Below, one piece after another: positions 4,887 to 10,209 of a DNA stretch of 64,000 nt. Numbering within the stretch: position 1 is the first letter of the stretch; every line of letters starts with the position of its first letter. Origin of the DNA: Pseudanabaena frigida (GTDB lineage: Bacteria; Cyanobacteriota; Cyanobacteriia; Pseudanabaenales; Pseudanabaenaceae); the NCBI GenBank assembly GCA_003242085.1, contig QBML01000004.1, positions 1-64,000 of the forward strand, given 5' to 3'. The position numbers and the translations under genes were made by a program. The notes beneath the pieces are model-generated. The model saw only the letters and a program-made list of their open reading frames with translations, had not been told where the DNA came from and ran no database searches.

Positions 4887-5898
4887 ATTGGGGTTGATGA
4901 CAGGTGATGCAATGAAATGCACCGCCACCTAGGAGGATATGCTTTGCAGAAAGCCCGATCGCTTTGCGGGTTGGAAAATGCTTGGCGATTTCTTGTACTG
5001 CGAGATCGTCATTTACAGAACCATATATGGGAATGATTACACTGTCATTAGAGATGTAGAAATTTAGATAACTGGCTGGCATAATTTCACCTTCATCATC
5101 AAGGACGAGATTCGGTGATGGGATCTTAATTACATTCAATTTACGACCTTTAGCATCAGTCATCGCTTCTAATTGCAAGGCGATATCATTGAGAACTTGA
5201 TAGTTAGGATCGTCCTCTGAAGTTGGCTGCATACACATGACAGTCTGAGGAGCAATAAAACGGGCGATCGTGTCGATATGACCGTCGGTGTGATCGTTGA
5301 GCAGTCCTTCTTCAATCCAGAGAACTTTCTCGACTCCCAAAGCAGATTTCAAGCCAGACTCGATCGCATCCTGATCCATATGGGGATTACGATTAGGATT
5401 GAGGAGACATTGCTTAGTAGTAAGACAAGTTCCTTCACCATCAACTTCGATCGCACCGCCTTCTAGTACCCAGTCAAATTCAAATCTCGGAATATCAAGG
5501 GTTTGGAGAATATTCCCTGCTACGAGATCGTCGTGTTCGAGCATATATTTGCCGCCCCACCCGTTCCATTGAAAATGCAAAGCTCCTAGCTTTCCATCAG
5601 CATTTTTGACATAGATCGGGGTAATGTCACGCATCCAGATATCGCCAAAGGGAATCTGATGAAAGCGTACTGGTAAATCACCGAGAAGTTCCTTTGCAAG
5701 CTCAGCAGTTTCTTCTAGTACTAAGATTTCTAGCTGTTCGGATGTGGCGATCGCTTTGGCTAGGGCGACGAATTCTGCTTGGACGATATCGAGATATTCT
5801 AACCACAGATCGCGATGGCTGGGGAAGGCTAGCCAACAGGCGGTATGGGGTTGCCATTCGGCTGGCTGAGCGTAGCCCAAGGTTTTTGGGGTTTCCAT
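4885..5898 (-). CDS. aguA: Agmatine deiminase (porphyromonas-type PAD family)
   Basis: 337 residues, normal for the family. It hydrolyses agmatine to N-carbamoylputrescine and ammonia in polyamine synthesis and arginine catabolism. Diagnostic motifs are all visible: WMRDITPIYV (acidic substrate ligand), EGGAIEVDGEGTCL, the HTDGHIDTIARF box, and the C-terminal GGGAFHCITCHQPQ carrying the nucleophilic cysteine at 330. No signal peptide is present, so it is cytoplasmic. A carbamoylputrescine amidase partner is not in the window. It appears monocistronic with its own hairpin. Confidence 0.92.
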   Translation of the reverse strand: METPKTLGYAQPAEWQPHTACWLAFPSHRDLWLEYLDIVQAEFVALAKAIATSEQLEILVLEETAELAKELLGDLPVRFHQIPFGDIWMRDITPIYVKNADGKLGALHFQWNGWGGKYMLEHDDLVAGNILQTLDIPRFEFDWVLEGGAIEVDGEGTCLTTKQCLLNPNRNPHMDQDAIESGLKSALGVEKVLWIEEGLLNDHTDGHIDTIARFIAPQTVMCMQPTSEDDPNYQVLNDIALQLEAMTDAKGRKLNVIKIPSPNLVLDDEGEIMPASYLNFYISNDSVIIPIYGSVNDDLAVQEIAKHFPTRKAIGLSAKHILLGGGAFHCITCHQPQ

Positions 5899-6055
5899 GA
5901 CGTTTGTGGTATTTAGCGACGAAAAGTGTTAAGAATCCATCGAAAATCCTACCCTTATTTGGGACTATTTGGGGGCGATCGCTTCTAGTTGCTTGTTTAC
6001 AGCTTTGTGAGTGGGGTGATCGCTTATGCTCAATACTCTAGACTTTTTAGCCTAT

Positions 6056-6085
6056 TTGACTAATTATATAAAATTTTATATAATT
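6056..6085 (+). promoter_or_regulatory. Consensus sigma-70 promoter with overlapping palindromic operator
   Basis: A -35 box TTGACT (6056-6061), a 17-bp spacer and a perfect -10 TATAAT (6079-6084) lie 22 nt before the antitoxin ATG. A perfect 24-bp AT-only palindrome (6062-6085) covers the spacer and -10. This is the expected arrangement for autorepression by the HTH antitoxin. Operator function is inference. Confidence 0.6.
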
Positions 6086-6106
6086 CAATAAAATTGAGCG
6101 GTAGTT

Positions 6107-6430
6107 ATGGTAATCAAGTTTTACGAAAGTCCGTTTCATGCGATCGAAGAGCCTGAAATCGCTAGTAAATCGGTTTTGAAGGCTGACTTGACGATTATGA
6201 TTCGGGACATAATTGAAAATAGAGGTTGGACTCAGAAAGAGGCAGCTGAAAGGTTGGCGGTTACTCAGCCTCGTGTGTCTGACATTGTGAATGGAAAAAT
6301 TGATAAGTTTACTTTGGATATGCTGTTTTCGATGCTTGATAAGCTGGGATTTAGGACTGAGTTTACTTTTAGCAGTTTAGAAAGTGCTTCTATTAAAATC
6401 CAAACAAGGGATTTAGCTAAAGTTGCTTAA
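6107..6430 (+). CDS. XRE-family helix-turn-helix antitoxin (HigA-like)
   Basis: 107 residues. A Cro/C1-type HTH spans about 42-95: IENRGWTQKEAAERLAVTQP, then SDIVNGKIDKFTLDMLFSML. The N-terminal segment FHAIEEPEIASKSVLKADL is typical of antitoxins paired with RelE/Gp49-type toxins. It should bind its own promoter, and a palindrome overlaps the -10 box. The likely partner toxin lies on the opposite strand, tail to tail and with zero bases between the stop codons (6430/6431). That is unusual because such pairs are normally cotranscribed. The antitoxin has the strong promoter. Confidence 0.8.
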   Translation: MVIKFYESPFHAIEEPEIASKSVLKADLTIMIRDIIENRGWTQKEAAERLAVTQPRVSDIVNGKIDKFTLDMLFSMLDKLGFRTEFTFSSLESASIKIQTRDLAKVA

Positions 6431-6778
6431 TTATTTTTGCTTTTTCATTTGTTCGATTTCAGCTTTTAGTTCCTTATATCTTTTCTCGACAGTTTTCATA
6501 GCTTGTCGATCTACGCTGTTTGTTGTCTTCTCAAATGAGTGTAGAACGACAACGGCATCTAGAAATTTTGCTATGTAGATACACCTAAAGGCTGGACTAC
6601 CATTTATTTTAAGTTCGATTACACCAGCGCCAATACCTTCAAGAGTTTGGATTGGTAAGAATGGCTTTTTGTCGTCTTGGACTGCTCTTAGGCTGGTTCC
6701 AAATTGTTGTTGAATCTTTTTTGGGAAGTCTTTGTATTCTCTTTCGGCAGCATCGTTAACAAAAGCAAAATTTTTCAT
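6431..6778 (-). CDS. RelE-superfamily toxin, phage Gp49/HigB-like
   Basis: 115 residues. The order of elements fits the Gp49-like branch of RelE mRNA interferases: AEREYKDFPKKIQQQFG, then LEGIGAGVIELKI, then FRCIYIAKFLDAVVVLHSFEKTT, and a basic C-terminus (VEKRYKELKAEIEQMKKQK). The fold is expected to cut mRNA on ribosomes. It converges on the XRE antitoxin gene with directly abutting stop codons. Upstream of its ATG I see no consensus promoter and a weak ribosome binding site, in contrast to the antitoxin. Activity is inferred from family. Confidence 0.75.
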   Translation of the reverse strand: MKNFAFVNDAAEREYKDFPKKIQQQFGTSLRAVQDDKKPFLPIQTLEGIGAGVIELKINGSPAFRCIYIAKFLDAVVVLHSFEKTTNSVDRQAMKTVEKRYKELKAEIEQMKKQK

Positions 6779-6925
6779 GATTAGTAAATTTGGAATAATT
6801 GAGCAGCAGTCCCTTCGGGGTTGAGGGTTAATAGAATTTATGGCTAGTTTTTTCTGAGGTCAAACAGAGTACGAACAAAGCCTGCGATCGCCTATTAATC
6901 CCATAAGCGATCGCTAACATATTAG

Positions 6926-7228
6926 CTAGTTGCTTCTGAATAGGTCAGACACAACTTTGACAAATGCTATAGCTAGCGTTGCATTAACTATATACATGGG
7001 GTCAAATTGCATATTCATTGGTATAGGTGGGATAGGCAGATTAGCTGATTGACTGACTGCACTTTGTTTAATGTTCATAGTTGGCGTAACTGTATTGTTC
7101 GTTTGCATGGATGTATCAGTAAGTTTGTTGGTGTCGTTTTGCTGAAAATGGTTAAGCTCCTTGTTAAATGGTGTAGGCGAGGTAGTCAGAGTAATGATTT
7201 GGCTATTTGTATTGATTGGAGTGTCCAT
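6926..7228 (-). CDS. Small protein with polar Asn/Thr-rich head and hydrophobic tail, unknown
   Basis: 100 residues. Residues 1-65 are rich in Asn, Thr and Gln with few charges. Residues ~78-95 (MYIVNATLAIAFVKVVSD) could be a tail anchor. I recognise no family. It is divergent from hsdS and sits at the edge of the HIP1-free stretch, which suggests accessory DNA. The reading frame may be real, but it could also be a degraded or spurious ORF. Confidence 0.35.
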   Translation of the reverse strand: MDTPINTNSQIITLTTSPTPFNKELNHFQQNDTNKLTDTSMQTNNTVTPTMNIKQSAVSQSANLPIPPIPMNMQFDPMYIVNATLAIAFVKVVSDLFRSN

Positions 7229-7386
7229 AAGTTTTTTGTGGATAAGGGGTAATATTTTAGAATTTTTAGCAAACTAAGGTTAGGCTTATACTTGCCAAAA
7301 ATCATGTTAACTAATGTAGCACAGCTTTGCAGTATTGCCATACTTCATTTGAGGTATCTGCATAATATAAGTGGTATCATACATAT

Positions 7387-7992
7387 ATGCTTAATCAAAA
7401 AATTCAATTCGACGACGAACCTTCAAAGCTTGAGAAGCTTGTAAGCATCACTCAGGGCATACAAGTAGTTCGCTATCAAGGTAATGATATGAATTACCGC
7501 CTTGTTAGTCCTCGACATTTAGATGGCTTTTACCTTAAAGCAGATTTAGATGCAGTAGCCCTTTCTAAGGTAGATCTGAAGAAATACCAATTGCACACCA
7601 ATGATATTGTGATGACAATTAAGTACAAGATTGGCAAAGCATCTCTCGTCACGGAAGATATAGAAGGTAGCCTTGCCGATCAGAATTTAGCAATTCTGCA
7701 TTGCATAGATACTTCCAAAGTTTTGCCCCGCTATTTGGTGGCTATCATAAATTCAGAATGGTTTTTTCAGTATCAGTTATCGCCTATCATGGGCTTATCT
7801 ACAGTTACCTCAATCTCTCTATCCCAGCTACGCAATTTAAAAGTTCCTGTACCAGATCAACATACTCAGAAAAAAATTGCTGATTTGTTTTTTACATTGG
7901 AAGAAATAAAAACATCATCCCTGAAAGCTTTAGAAATACGTCAGAAATTAGCAGAGTCAAGTCTATTTGAGTTGTTTGGAGAAAATGTATGA
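7387..7992 (+). CDS. hsdS: Half-length type I restriction specificity subunit (single TRD)
   Basis: 201 residues, about half a normal HsdS. Residues ~10-150 form one target recognition domain (DIVMTIKYKIGKASLV, then LSTVTSISLSQLRNLKVPVP). Residues ~155-201 form the conserved helical spacer (KKIADLFFTLEEIKTSSLKA). Half-S proteins of this kind are known to dimerise and read a palindromic bipartite target. The stop overlaps the hsdM start by 4 nt (ATGA), indicating coupled translation. S preceding M is the reverse of the usual order. No hsdR lies within the window on either side. No HIP1 octamer occurs in the gene, consistent with transfer. Confidence 0.8.
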   Translation: MLNQKIQFDDEPSKLEKLVSITQGIQVVRYQGNDMNYRLVSPRHLDGFYLKADLDAVALSKVDLKKYQLHTNDIVMTIKYKIGKASLVTEDIEGSLADQNLAILHCIDTSKVLPRYLVAIINSEWFFQYQLSPIMGLSTVTSISLSQLRNLKVPVPDQHTQKKIADLFFTLEEIKTSSLKALEIRQKLAESSLFELFGENV

Positions 7993-9416
7993 GTACCAAA
8001 AAAAATTGGAAAGAATTTACGACTGAAATATTTCAACAGAGAGAATGTTCGGGTTTTAGCCATCAAGATTGGCTATCGCATTTTCTGAAATTACTACTAA
8101 TAAAGTACTTATCTGACATAGCAGATACTAAATCTAATGAGATTGCTGAATATTTTAGCCAAATGCCTAGCGAAGTTCACTGGAATAATTTTGTCAAGGC
8201 TAAAAATCTTGGGGAAGCTTTAGATAAAGCTATAAAAGAAATTGGCAATACTAATCCAAAGCTTAAAAGTGTTTTTGGGGAATCTACATTCCATAAAATT
8301 CCAGAAATAAGTTTACTGGCAATGCTGTCCAAGATTAACGAAATCAAACCTGATGAACCTATATTTACTCTGTCATCAAATTATGCTGTCATTGCAGAAG
8401 ATGCTATTGACTTTGCAGCCAACGATGAAAAATATGGAGGAGAATACTTTACTCCCAAAGGAATAAATAAGCTATTGGTAAATTTGCTCTCTCCTAAAGA
8501 AAGAATGACTATCCACGATCCTGTCTGTGGGACAGGAGGGCTATTTATAGAATGCGCTCAACATCTAACTGAGATAAATGAAGATTTTTCAACACTTCAG
8601 TTTTTTGGGCAAGAAATCAATAAACAAGTTTATGAAATTTGTCAAATCAATCTCCTATTACACGGATTAGATAATTTTGAAATTGAAAATGGCGATACAT
8701 TGCGAGATCCAAAATTTATCAAAGAAAATAAGCTAAAGCATTTTGATGGGATAATTGCTAATCCTCCTTTTAATCTGAACGATTGGGGATATGAAGAAGC
8801 GAAGAAGAAAGAAAGATTTGATAGGTTTCGTTATGGTCTACCACCCAAGAAAAATGGTGATTTTGCCTTTATTCAACATATTGTCGCTACACTTGAAGAT
8901 ACTTCTGGTAAAGCAGTGATGATTGTCTCCCCTGGGGTTCTATTTCGTGCAGGTGTAGAACAAGAAATTCGCAAACGCATTGTACAGTCAGACATTATTG
9001 AAGCTGCTATTGGAGTGTCTACAAACGTGCTGTATAACACCAGCATTCCTCCCGCTATTCTTATTTTCAATCGTAAGAAGTCTAAAGAAAGAAAAAATAG
9101 AGTGTTGATTATTGATGCAAGTAAAGAATATCAAAAGCTTGATAGAGGACAAAATGCTCTTGATGATGAGAACATAAAAAATATTGTCTCAATTTATAAA
9201 AACTTTAAAAATGTAGACAATATTGCAAAGGTAGTTACACTTAAAGAAATAGAGGCTAATGACTATCAACTCAATGCAAATAAATTCATTACGCCTCCAA
9301 GAGATAAAATCGATATTCAACAAGAATTTGAACAGTTAAGCCAACTTGAACTACAACGTAGTCAACTAGAAAACAAAATGAATCAGTGTTTGCAAGACTT
9401 AGGAATCAACTTATAA
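7989..9416 (+). CDS. hsdM: Type I restriction-modification DNA methyltransferase subunit (N6-adenine)
   Basis: 475 residues. The HsdM N-terminal helical domain covers about 1-130. The N6-methylase domain follows with EYFTPKGINKLLV, SAM motif I DPVCGTGGLF at 177-186, and catalytic motif IV NPPF at 258-261. The C-terminus (about 440-475) is a helical segment that would contact HsdS. It methylates adenine at a site chosen by the half-S subunit. With no HsdR encoded nearby this is either an orphan methylase acting in regulation or anti-restriction, or a decayed type I system. The gene is AT-rich and lacks HIP1. About 170 nt of non-coding DNA follow before the next TA pair. Confidence 0.88.
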   Translation: MSTKKNWKEFTTEIFQQRECSGFSHQDWLSHFLKLLLIKYLSDIADTKSNEIAEYFSQMPSEVHWNNFVKAKNLGEALDKAIKEIGNTNPKLKSVFGESTFHKIPEISLLAMLSKINEIKPDEPIFTLSSNYAVIAEDAIDFAANDEKYGGEYFTPKGINKLLVNLLSPKERMTIHDPVCGTGGLFIECAQHLTEINEDFSTLQFFGQEINKQVYEICQINLLLHGLDNFEIENGDTLRDPKFIKENKLKHFDGIIANPPFNLNDWGYEEAKKKERFDRFRYGLPPKKNGDFAFIQHIVATLEDTSGKAVMIVSPGVLFRAGVEQEIRKRIVQSDIIEAAIGVSTNVLYNTSIPPAILIFNRKKSKERKNRVLIIDASKEYQKLDRGQNALDDENIKNIVSIYKNFKNVDNIAKVVTLKEIEANDYQLNANKFITPPRDKIDIQQEFEQLSQLELQRSQLENKMNQCLQDLGINL

Positions 9417-9588: not shown

Positions 9589-9810
9589 ATGAACACCGAT
9601 ACTGCTTTATGGCAAGTAGTTATTAACATGCCAGATGCCCTCAAAACAGAGCTTTTGCACTATGCAGAGTATCTACTTATCAAATATCCCAAAGTCATCC
9701 CCATTGATGCGCCAGACGAGCAACAGCATGGCTATGGCAGTTGGGCTGGTCAAATTTTTATGTCAAGCGATTTTGACGAGCCATTGGAAGAACTAGAGGA
9801 ATATATGTAA
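9589..9810 (+). CDS. VapB-type antitoxin, DUF2281 family
   Basis: 73 residues. The N-terminal region is helical (LKTELLHYAEYLLIKYP). The C-terminus has the DUF2281 signature (GSWAGQIFMSSDFDEPLEEL) that wraps the partner PIN toxin. A strong AGGAGGAG ribosome binding site lies 5 nt before the ATG. The stop codon is followed one base later by what would be the toxin start codon, so the two were cotranscribed and coupled. The antitoxin is intact while the toxin start is not. Confidence 0.8.
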   Translation: MNTDTALWQVVINMPDALKTELLHYAEYLLIKYPKVIPIDAPDEQQHGYGSWAGQIFMSSDFDEPLEELEEYM

Positions 9811-9811
9811 T

Positions 9812-10209
9812 ATGAAATACCCCTAGATACTCATGTTGTTTTGTGGTACTTGAGCAAAGATTCTAACTTAAGCCCCAAAGCGAAGGAAATCGTAGACACC
9901 AAGGCAGATATATATTTTAGTATTGTCAGCTTATGGGAAATTGCCATCAAAGTAAATATTGGGAAATTGCAAATAAACCGACCTATCGAAGCATTACCAA
10001 TAGAACTTCAATATATGAATATCCAAGTTTTACCTATTACTATTCGAGACATTGAAATATATTCAAGCCTTCCATTACCCAACACACCTATAAAACATCG
10101 AGATCCATTCGATCGCATACTAATAGCCCAAGCAATAAATCATTCTTTTCATCTAGTAAGTCGAGACAACGCTTTTGACGCTTATCCAATTCCGCGCATG
10201 TGGGAATAA
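9812..10209 (+). pseudogene. VapC-like PIN-domain toxin with a frameshift at its start
   Basis: The PIN body is intact: LDTHVVLWYL (first catalytic Asp), SIVSLWEIAIK (Glu), HRDPFDRILIAQA (Asp) and SRDNAFDAYPIP. However, the ATG at 9812 reads Met-Lys-Tyr-Pro-stop. The toxin frame is open only from 9811, with no ATG, GTG or TTG before the catalytic Asp at 9826-9828; the first candidate start is the TTG at 9841, downstream of that Asp. Adding one C to the four-C run at 9820-9823 would restore MKYPLDTHVVLWYL. I therefore read a 1-nt deletion. Alternatives are slippage at the C run, an ATA start at 9817, or a sequencing error. Confidence 0.6.

Follow-up and report, generated by a model that had tools for sequence, protein, structure and literature searches.

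The window analysed here is a 64-kb stretch of DNA (64,000 nucleotides) from Pseudanabaena frigida. Near its beginning two genes run towards each other until their stop codons abut. The initial annotation had described them as a tail-to-tail toxin-antitoxin pair with zero spacing, an XRE antitoxin on the plus strand and a RelE/Gp49-like toxin on the minus strand, and this was confirmed by the open reading frames, the abutting stops and the Pfam matches. The features of the locus are listed below.

6053-6778, no strand: conserved DNA unit, consisting of the antitoxin promoter/operator, the antitoxin and the toxin, with its edge at the toxin ATG
6056-6061, plus strand: -35 box TTGACT of the antitoxin promoter, where the region first annotated starts
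6062-6085, no strand: perfect 24-bp palindrome AATTATATAAAATTTTATATAATT, filling the spacer and the -10 box; putative antitoxin operator
6079-6084, plus strand: -10 box TATAAT of the antitoxin promoter, within the palindrome
6107-6430, plus strand: antitoxin gene, 107 aa, XRE/HTH_37 open reading frame
6428-6433, no strand: stop-codon junction TAA|TTA, with 0 bp between the genes and no hairpin or terminator
6431-6778, minus strand: toxin gene, 115 aa, Gp49/DUF891, RelE/HigB fold on a modest model
6779-6925, minus strand: toxin upstream region, in which conservation is gone within about 20-40 bp, with a weak promoter candidate at 6863-6835

The antitoxin matches HTH_37 (PF13744, E=9.7e-19) and the toxin matches Gp49/DUF891 (PF05973, E=6e-17), both above the gathering score, so the two domains expected of a type II Gp49/HTH_37 pair (Tad-Ata / HigBA-like) are both present. 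As far as the sequence can tell, the promoter from which the antitoxin is transcribed also lies under a palindromic operator, as is expected of type II systems. However, the genes of such pairs normally lie co-directionally in one operon, and those of the window converge with 0 bp between them. As this arrangement is kept in the relatives, we rank the pair as a variant and not as an ordinary Gp49/HTH_37 member. Both proteins scored below the curated cut-offs of more specific models, the antitoxin against the HigA equivalog TIGR02607 (19.3 vs 47.7 bits) and the toxin against the HI1419 toxin model TIGR02683 (18.3 vs 62.85 bits). The predicted antitoxin structure contains an HTH core with pLDDT of about 90. 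The predicted toxin structure is a modest model (pLDDT 63), and on this model the toxin appears to have the RelE/HigB fold: among solved folds, M. tuberculosis HigB1 was the best match (Z 10.3 over 111 residues), and V. cholerae HigB2 (Z 8.4) and RelE (Z 7.6) matched as well. A sequence search against solved structures gave no match for the toxin. In the RNA-family search of the window, only one tRNA was detected.

Other genes of the window include type I restriction-modification genes at 7387-9416, where the specificity protein has only 201 aa and one recognition domain, which is half size. Near this locus, a DUF2281 protein followed by a PIN-domain protein at 9589-10209 probably represents a second, ordinary co-directional toxin-antitoxin pair.

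The antitoxin promoter TTGACT-17-TATAAT has 11 of 12 consensus bases and is the top-scoring site in 5800-7400. The perfect 24-bp palindrome over this promoter, as proposed earlier, is present at 6062-6085 and is the longest perfect one in the 64-kb window. None of 60 simulated 64-kb windows contained a 24-bp palindrome, the mean longest being 16. When the antitoxin loci were aligned, the -35 box and the palindrome were the most conserved non-coding bases 5' of the antitoxin, and TTGAC was found at unchanged spacing in nearly all of the 15 loci. The 20-bp operator core TTATATAAAATTTTATATAA recurs upstream of the antitoxin with 0-3 mismatches from cyanobacteria to Gammaproteobacteria, namely in the clade-1 Pseudanabaena loci (see below), G350, the Bathymodiolus symbiont, MAG207, Methylobacter, Pleionea, Brenneria, Aeromonas hydrophila and several viral contigs. 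The 20-bp consensus has no significant match in more divergent members (Rhizobium, E. coli, Klebsiella, Xanthomonas). Part of the palindrome conservation may be promoter conservation, because the -10 box forms part of the palindrome. Nevertheless, both arms change in step, to TTATCTAAAATATTAGATAA in Brenneria, TTATCTTAAATTTTAGATAA in L158 and TTATACAAAATTTTGTATAA in L161, and these matched changes are easier to reconcile with the operator of a dimer than with a simple -10 box, though the right arm includes the -10.

On the toxin side, the picture is different. The operator core was scanned for upstream of every toxin in the convergent loci and nothing with fewer than 5 mismatches was found; an operator on the toxin side was therefore rejected as a candidate. 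A locus-specific toxin promoter could still bind the antitoxin via a diverged site. The statement that the toxin has no obvious strong promoter also holds. The best candidate, TTGACC-17-TAAATT on the minus strand (6863-6835), has 9 of 12 consensus bases, which is at chance level, and 4 promoter-like sites were found across the region compared with 4.4 expected from shuffles.

The extent of conservation was mapped with a 2.5-kb segment of the window, which was aligned to 26 genomes from the same genus. In G011:C5, G011:C6, G016 and G014 the match ran from query position 1174 to 1899 or 1900, which corresponds to 6053 to 6778 or 6779. In others it continued 11-50 bp further beyond the toxin ATG, and in G012 it also included about 64 bp extra on the promoter side. 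Similarity 5' of the toxin falls to background within 20-40 bp. Since the conserved unit runs from the -35 box of the antitoxin to the toxin ATG, it is a module with an antitoxin promoter and without a conserved toxin promoter.

The initial annotation had suggested surveying Gp49/XRE pairs for the convergent layout. Among relatives of the window toxin, such a survey showed that convergence is conserved in a large clade and has at least two origins. The survey with profile models gave 86 toxin-first rows, 39 convergent rows and 2 unpaired rows, with no divergent or antitoxin-first pairs among them. These counts are not prevalence figures, since the relatives were retrieved by similarity to the window toxin or to an alignment of its relatives, which favours clade 1; the proteobacterial sample consisted of plasmids, viral contigs and one scan of genome contigs. 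A few entries are artefacts of the choice of open reading frame, namely L153 (gap -114) and L140 (record cut, antitoxin missing), and in L155, the sister of L140, an HTH gene is convergent to the toxin. Within the genus, all intact orthologues are convergent, mostly with a gap of exactly 0 bp, and Pseudanabaena galeata CCNP1313 carries such pairs on two plasmids. Convergent relatives with 53-74% toxin identity occur in Pleionea, Methylobacter, the Bathymodiolus symbiont, Brenneria, Yersinia, Vibrio, Aeromonas and Rhizobium, and those with about 34-50% identity in Mesorhizobium, Sinorhizobium, Xanthomonas, Pseudomonas fragi and small E. coli and Klebsiella plasmids. The gaps of the convergent pairs range from -11 to +21. 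Among complete E. coli genomes, 6 of 5426 contain the convergent form, on small plasmids. One E. coli plasmid of 2757 bp (AP027773, L148) has the convergent pair as its only two annotated genes and is a minimal natural test case. In the subclade of E. coli, Klebsiella, Xanthomonas and Pseudomonas, a short open reading frame (about 23-32 codons), in many cases with a good ribosome site, lies over the toxin start in another frame (L139:1913-1993, L141:1034-1132, L142:1404-1475, L149:1404-1475, L143:331-420 and L153:1380-1457); it might encode a leader peptide for translational coupling of the toxin.

In the maximum-likelihood toxin tree of 84 rows, these convergent pairs form one clade (clade 1, support 99/92) with hosts in Pseudanabaena, Gamma- and Alphaproteobacteria and small enterobacterial plasmids. 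The layout changes 3 times on the tree, compared with about 28 per label when the labels were shuffled. Chance adjacency of the two genes was excluded by the conserved layout and the co-inheritance of the partners. The exceptions in clade 1 among the sampled relatives are four marine plasmids (Shewanella, Alteromonas, Pseudoalteromonas and Vibrio), in which toxin and antitoxin lie in tandem about 70 bp apart. The gap between these tandem genes holds a palindromic repeat, which suggests that the marine antitoxin also has its own promoter. Sampled relatives outside the convergent clades are toxin-first.

A second group of convergent pairs, clade 2, was found in Pseudanabaena only and includes a paralogue in the window's own genome (C55, locus L002); a third paralogue there (C28, L003) is an ordinary operon. 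Clade 2 is independent of clade 1, since it is nested among cyanobacterial toxin-first operons, and its palindrome TATGCCAAATAAGGTATA is different from the clade 1 operator. In the operonic sisters (L044, L048, L050, L051) TATGCCAAATAAGGTATA lies about 10-22 bp upstream of the toxin, and in the convergent loci (L002, L021, L022, L024, L041) 28-35 bp upstream of the antitoxin. The same operator thus stands 5' of the toxin in operons and 5' of the antitoxin when the genes converge, which implies that the rearrangement freed the toxin from operator control. Clade 2 is in this respect a natural experiment, with operonic and convergent sisters sharing one operator. In the convergent loci, the toxin start overlaps the 3' end of a DUF2726 gene (L002:944-1797) and the upstream sequence is the same in all five. 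On these grounds, the clade 2 toxin is probably translated as the last gene of a different operon, which would be an example of read-in feeding the toxin.

The layout might also be a neutral accident, that is, an inversion fixed by drift with regulation otherwise like that of toxin-first operons. Type II antitoxins are usually trans-acting proteins, so the orientation may be irrelevant to them, and the toxin tree contains at least three layout changes. On the other hand, the toxin ended outside a conserved operator in both clades and the layout is held down to about 40% toxin identity. We regard drift as a rather improbable explanation, and the junction between the genes provides a further argument against it. 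Of the 39 non-redundant convergent loci, 11 have a perfect hairpin with the stop codon of the antitoxin at its centre; none of the 85 operonic loci has one.

This hairpin depends on the gap class: it occurs in 10 of 18 loci with a gap of 1-30 bp, in 0 of 9 with zero gap, and in 1 of 12 with overlapping genes. Its stems are of unrelated sequence in different lineages, and it may be a common terminator or a barrier at the transcript ends. The window pair is one of the nine zero-gap loci. A terminator at its junction was excluded, as none was found in the region scan, which detected no terminator-like site between 6107 and 6778 on either strand, or in the junction-hairpin survey; its two transcripts should therefore overlap. 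This bears on the idea, raised in the initial annotation, that convergence is itself the control. The toxin would then be held down by transcription from the opposite side or by 3'-3' antisense pairing (RNase III decay), much as in type I systems or in M. tuberculosis relBE2/asRelE2. A zero or negative gap without a terminator is present in the window pair and many relatives, and convergent RNA acting on a type II toxin has been published for relBE2 (PMC9325379). Antisense pairing is thus possible at the zero-gap loci, including the window junction. As a common principle of convergent pairs it is unlikely, because the hairpin in the majority of the 1-30 bp loci is expected to hinder read-through and reduce the overlap, and the four marine members are tandem instead of convergent. 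Overall, we consider control by convergence an unlikely account of the system.

Selection and gene loss bear on whether the pair works at all. Both genes are under purifying selection, with a median dN/dS of 0.07 for the toxin and about 0.09 for the antitoxin. A toxin pseudogene in the window was excluded by the toxin value and the full-length open reading frame, unlike in some relatives whose toxin gene is broken or deleted. A type I system was also excluded, as the gene that faces the toxin codes for a conserved HTH protein, and the toxin itself is a Gp49-family protein of 115 aa. The toxin and antitoxin distance matrices are correlated (rho 0.73), with 0 of 5000 permutations as high. In about six cases the antitoxin was kept and the toxin broken or lost, and the reverse was never seen. 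Antitoxin-only loci exist in G021, G024, G012 and G011 (two copies), a 26-codon toxin remnant is left in G029, and a stop interrupts toxin codon 23 in G017. In G021 and G029 the antitoxin lies close to the same neighbour gene as in the window (matches 1-1127 and 1-1119), which is why the toxin was probably lost in place. The two copies in G011 (G011:C1:3481226-3485720; L134 and L135) are about 4 kb apart and both keep the operator; given their similar downstream DNA, the region looks duplicated. The window's own genome also contains a degenerate piece of this antitoxin gene that carries stops (G000:C22:201793-201927, L008). That several genomes hold the antitoxin and its operator without the toxin would agree with another role for the antitoxin, and hence with a non-working pair, made up of an inactive toxin or of an antitoxin that is just a regulator, the two being neighbours by hitch-hiking. 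We consider this very unlikely, as both genes are under purifying selection, they are inherited jointly across phyla, and the search of 38 genomes gave no intact clade-1 toxin that lacked an antitoxin.

The protein families themselves are known; it is the wiring that is new. Tad-Ata (COG4679/DUF891 toxin with an HTH antitoxin) belongs to the same families as the window pair, Gp49/DUF891 and XRE-type, and A. baumannii HigBA2 likewise combines a RelE-superfamily toxin with an XRE antitoxin. Both are co-directional toxin-first operons with one promoter for both genes (PMC2701414, PMC3832669, PMC5906591), whereas the genes of the window converge and the operator is at the antitoxin only. The passenger pairs of Tn3-family transposons share the two Pfam families Gp49/HTH_37 and are mobile, but all seven listed are toxin-first operons (PMC7157771). 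One convergent member, in Xanthomonas citri (L142), adjoins a Tn3-family transposase. The 'type IIb' system relBE2-asRelE2 of M. tuberculosis (PMC9325379) likewise has a RelE-fold toxin with convergent transcription across the toxin gene. It consists of an antitoxin-toxin bicistron plus a separate antisense RNA, while in the window the antitoxin gene itself is convergent. The type I systems par/fst and bsrG/SR4 (PMC3874152) are also convergent units with a 3' overlap, but their antitoxin is an RNA and that of the window is, by family, a DNA-binding protein. Type II systems are described as bicistrons (PMC9325379), and the influential genome survey of Makarova et al. mapped only co-directed neighbours in its neighbour-based search (PMC2701414), so convergent pairs were outside that search. 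No convergent type II pair was found in the open papers searched, so its absence from the literature is provisional.

We consider it likely that the window contains a type II Gp49/HTH_37 pair in which the antitoxin represses nothing but itself, while the toxin lies outside the operator and is driven by its surroundings. From the sequences we infer toxicity, neutralisation, operator binding and feedback, which would operate as follows. The antitoxin, most likely as a dimer, would bind the palindrome over its own promoter and repress only itself, and toxin transcription would depend on the sequence or genes that lie upstream wherever the pair has inserted. Toxin in excess would draw the antitoxin away from the operator, antitoxin synthesis would rise, and the toxin would be neutralised. 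As the toxin load would free the operator, antitoxin output would follow toxin input although the two genes share no transcript. Where the gap is zero, as in the window pair, the overlapping 3' ends may in addition dampen both genes through antisense pairing. The direction in which the toxin acts stays provisional here, since in HigBA2, where the antitoxin autorepresses its operon, the toxin acts as a co-repressor (PMC5906591). The conserved principle appears to be that the operator stays with its own antitoxin and the toxin lies beyond it. A more far-reaching reading is possible, although we hold it to be doubtful: a distinct type II class whose toxin escapes antitoxin control and is expressed by read-in from the DNA next to it, while the autoregulated antitoxin is a thermostat answering toxin load. 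The junction (zero gap or hairpin) would then determine how toxin and antitoxin are balanced at the RNA level, and the toxin would act as a reporter of how the host locus or plasmid is transcribed.

A wiring in which only the antidote is under a conserved, presumably self-regulated promoter is not covered by textbook models of type II toxin-antitoxin systems, and the small E. coli plasmids with the convergent form make it testable in laboratory strains. Co-transcription and operator control of the toxin are central to the usual autoregulation model, and a conserved class with independent origins suggests that both are dispensable.
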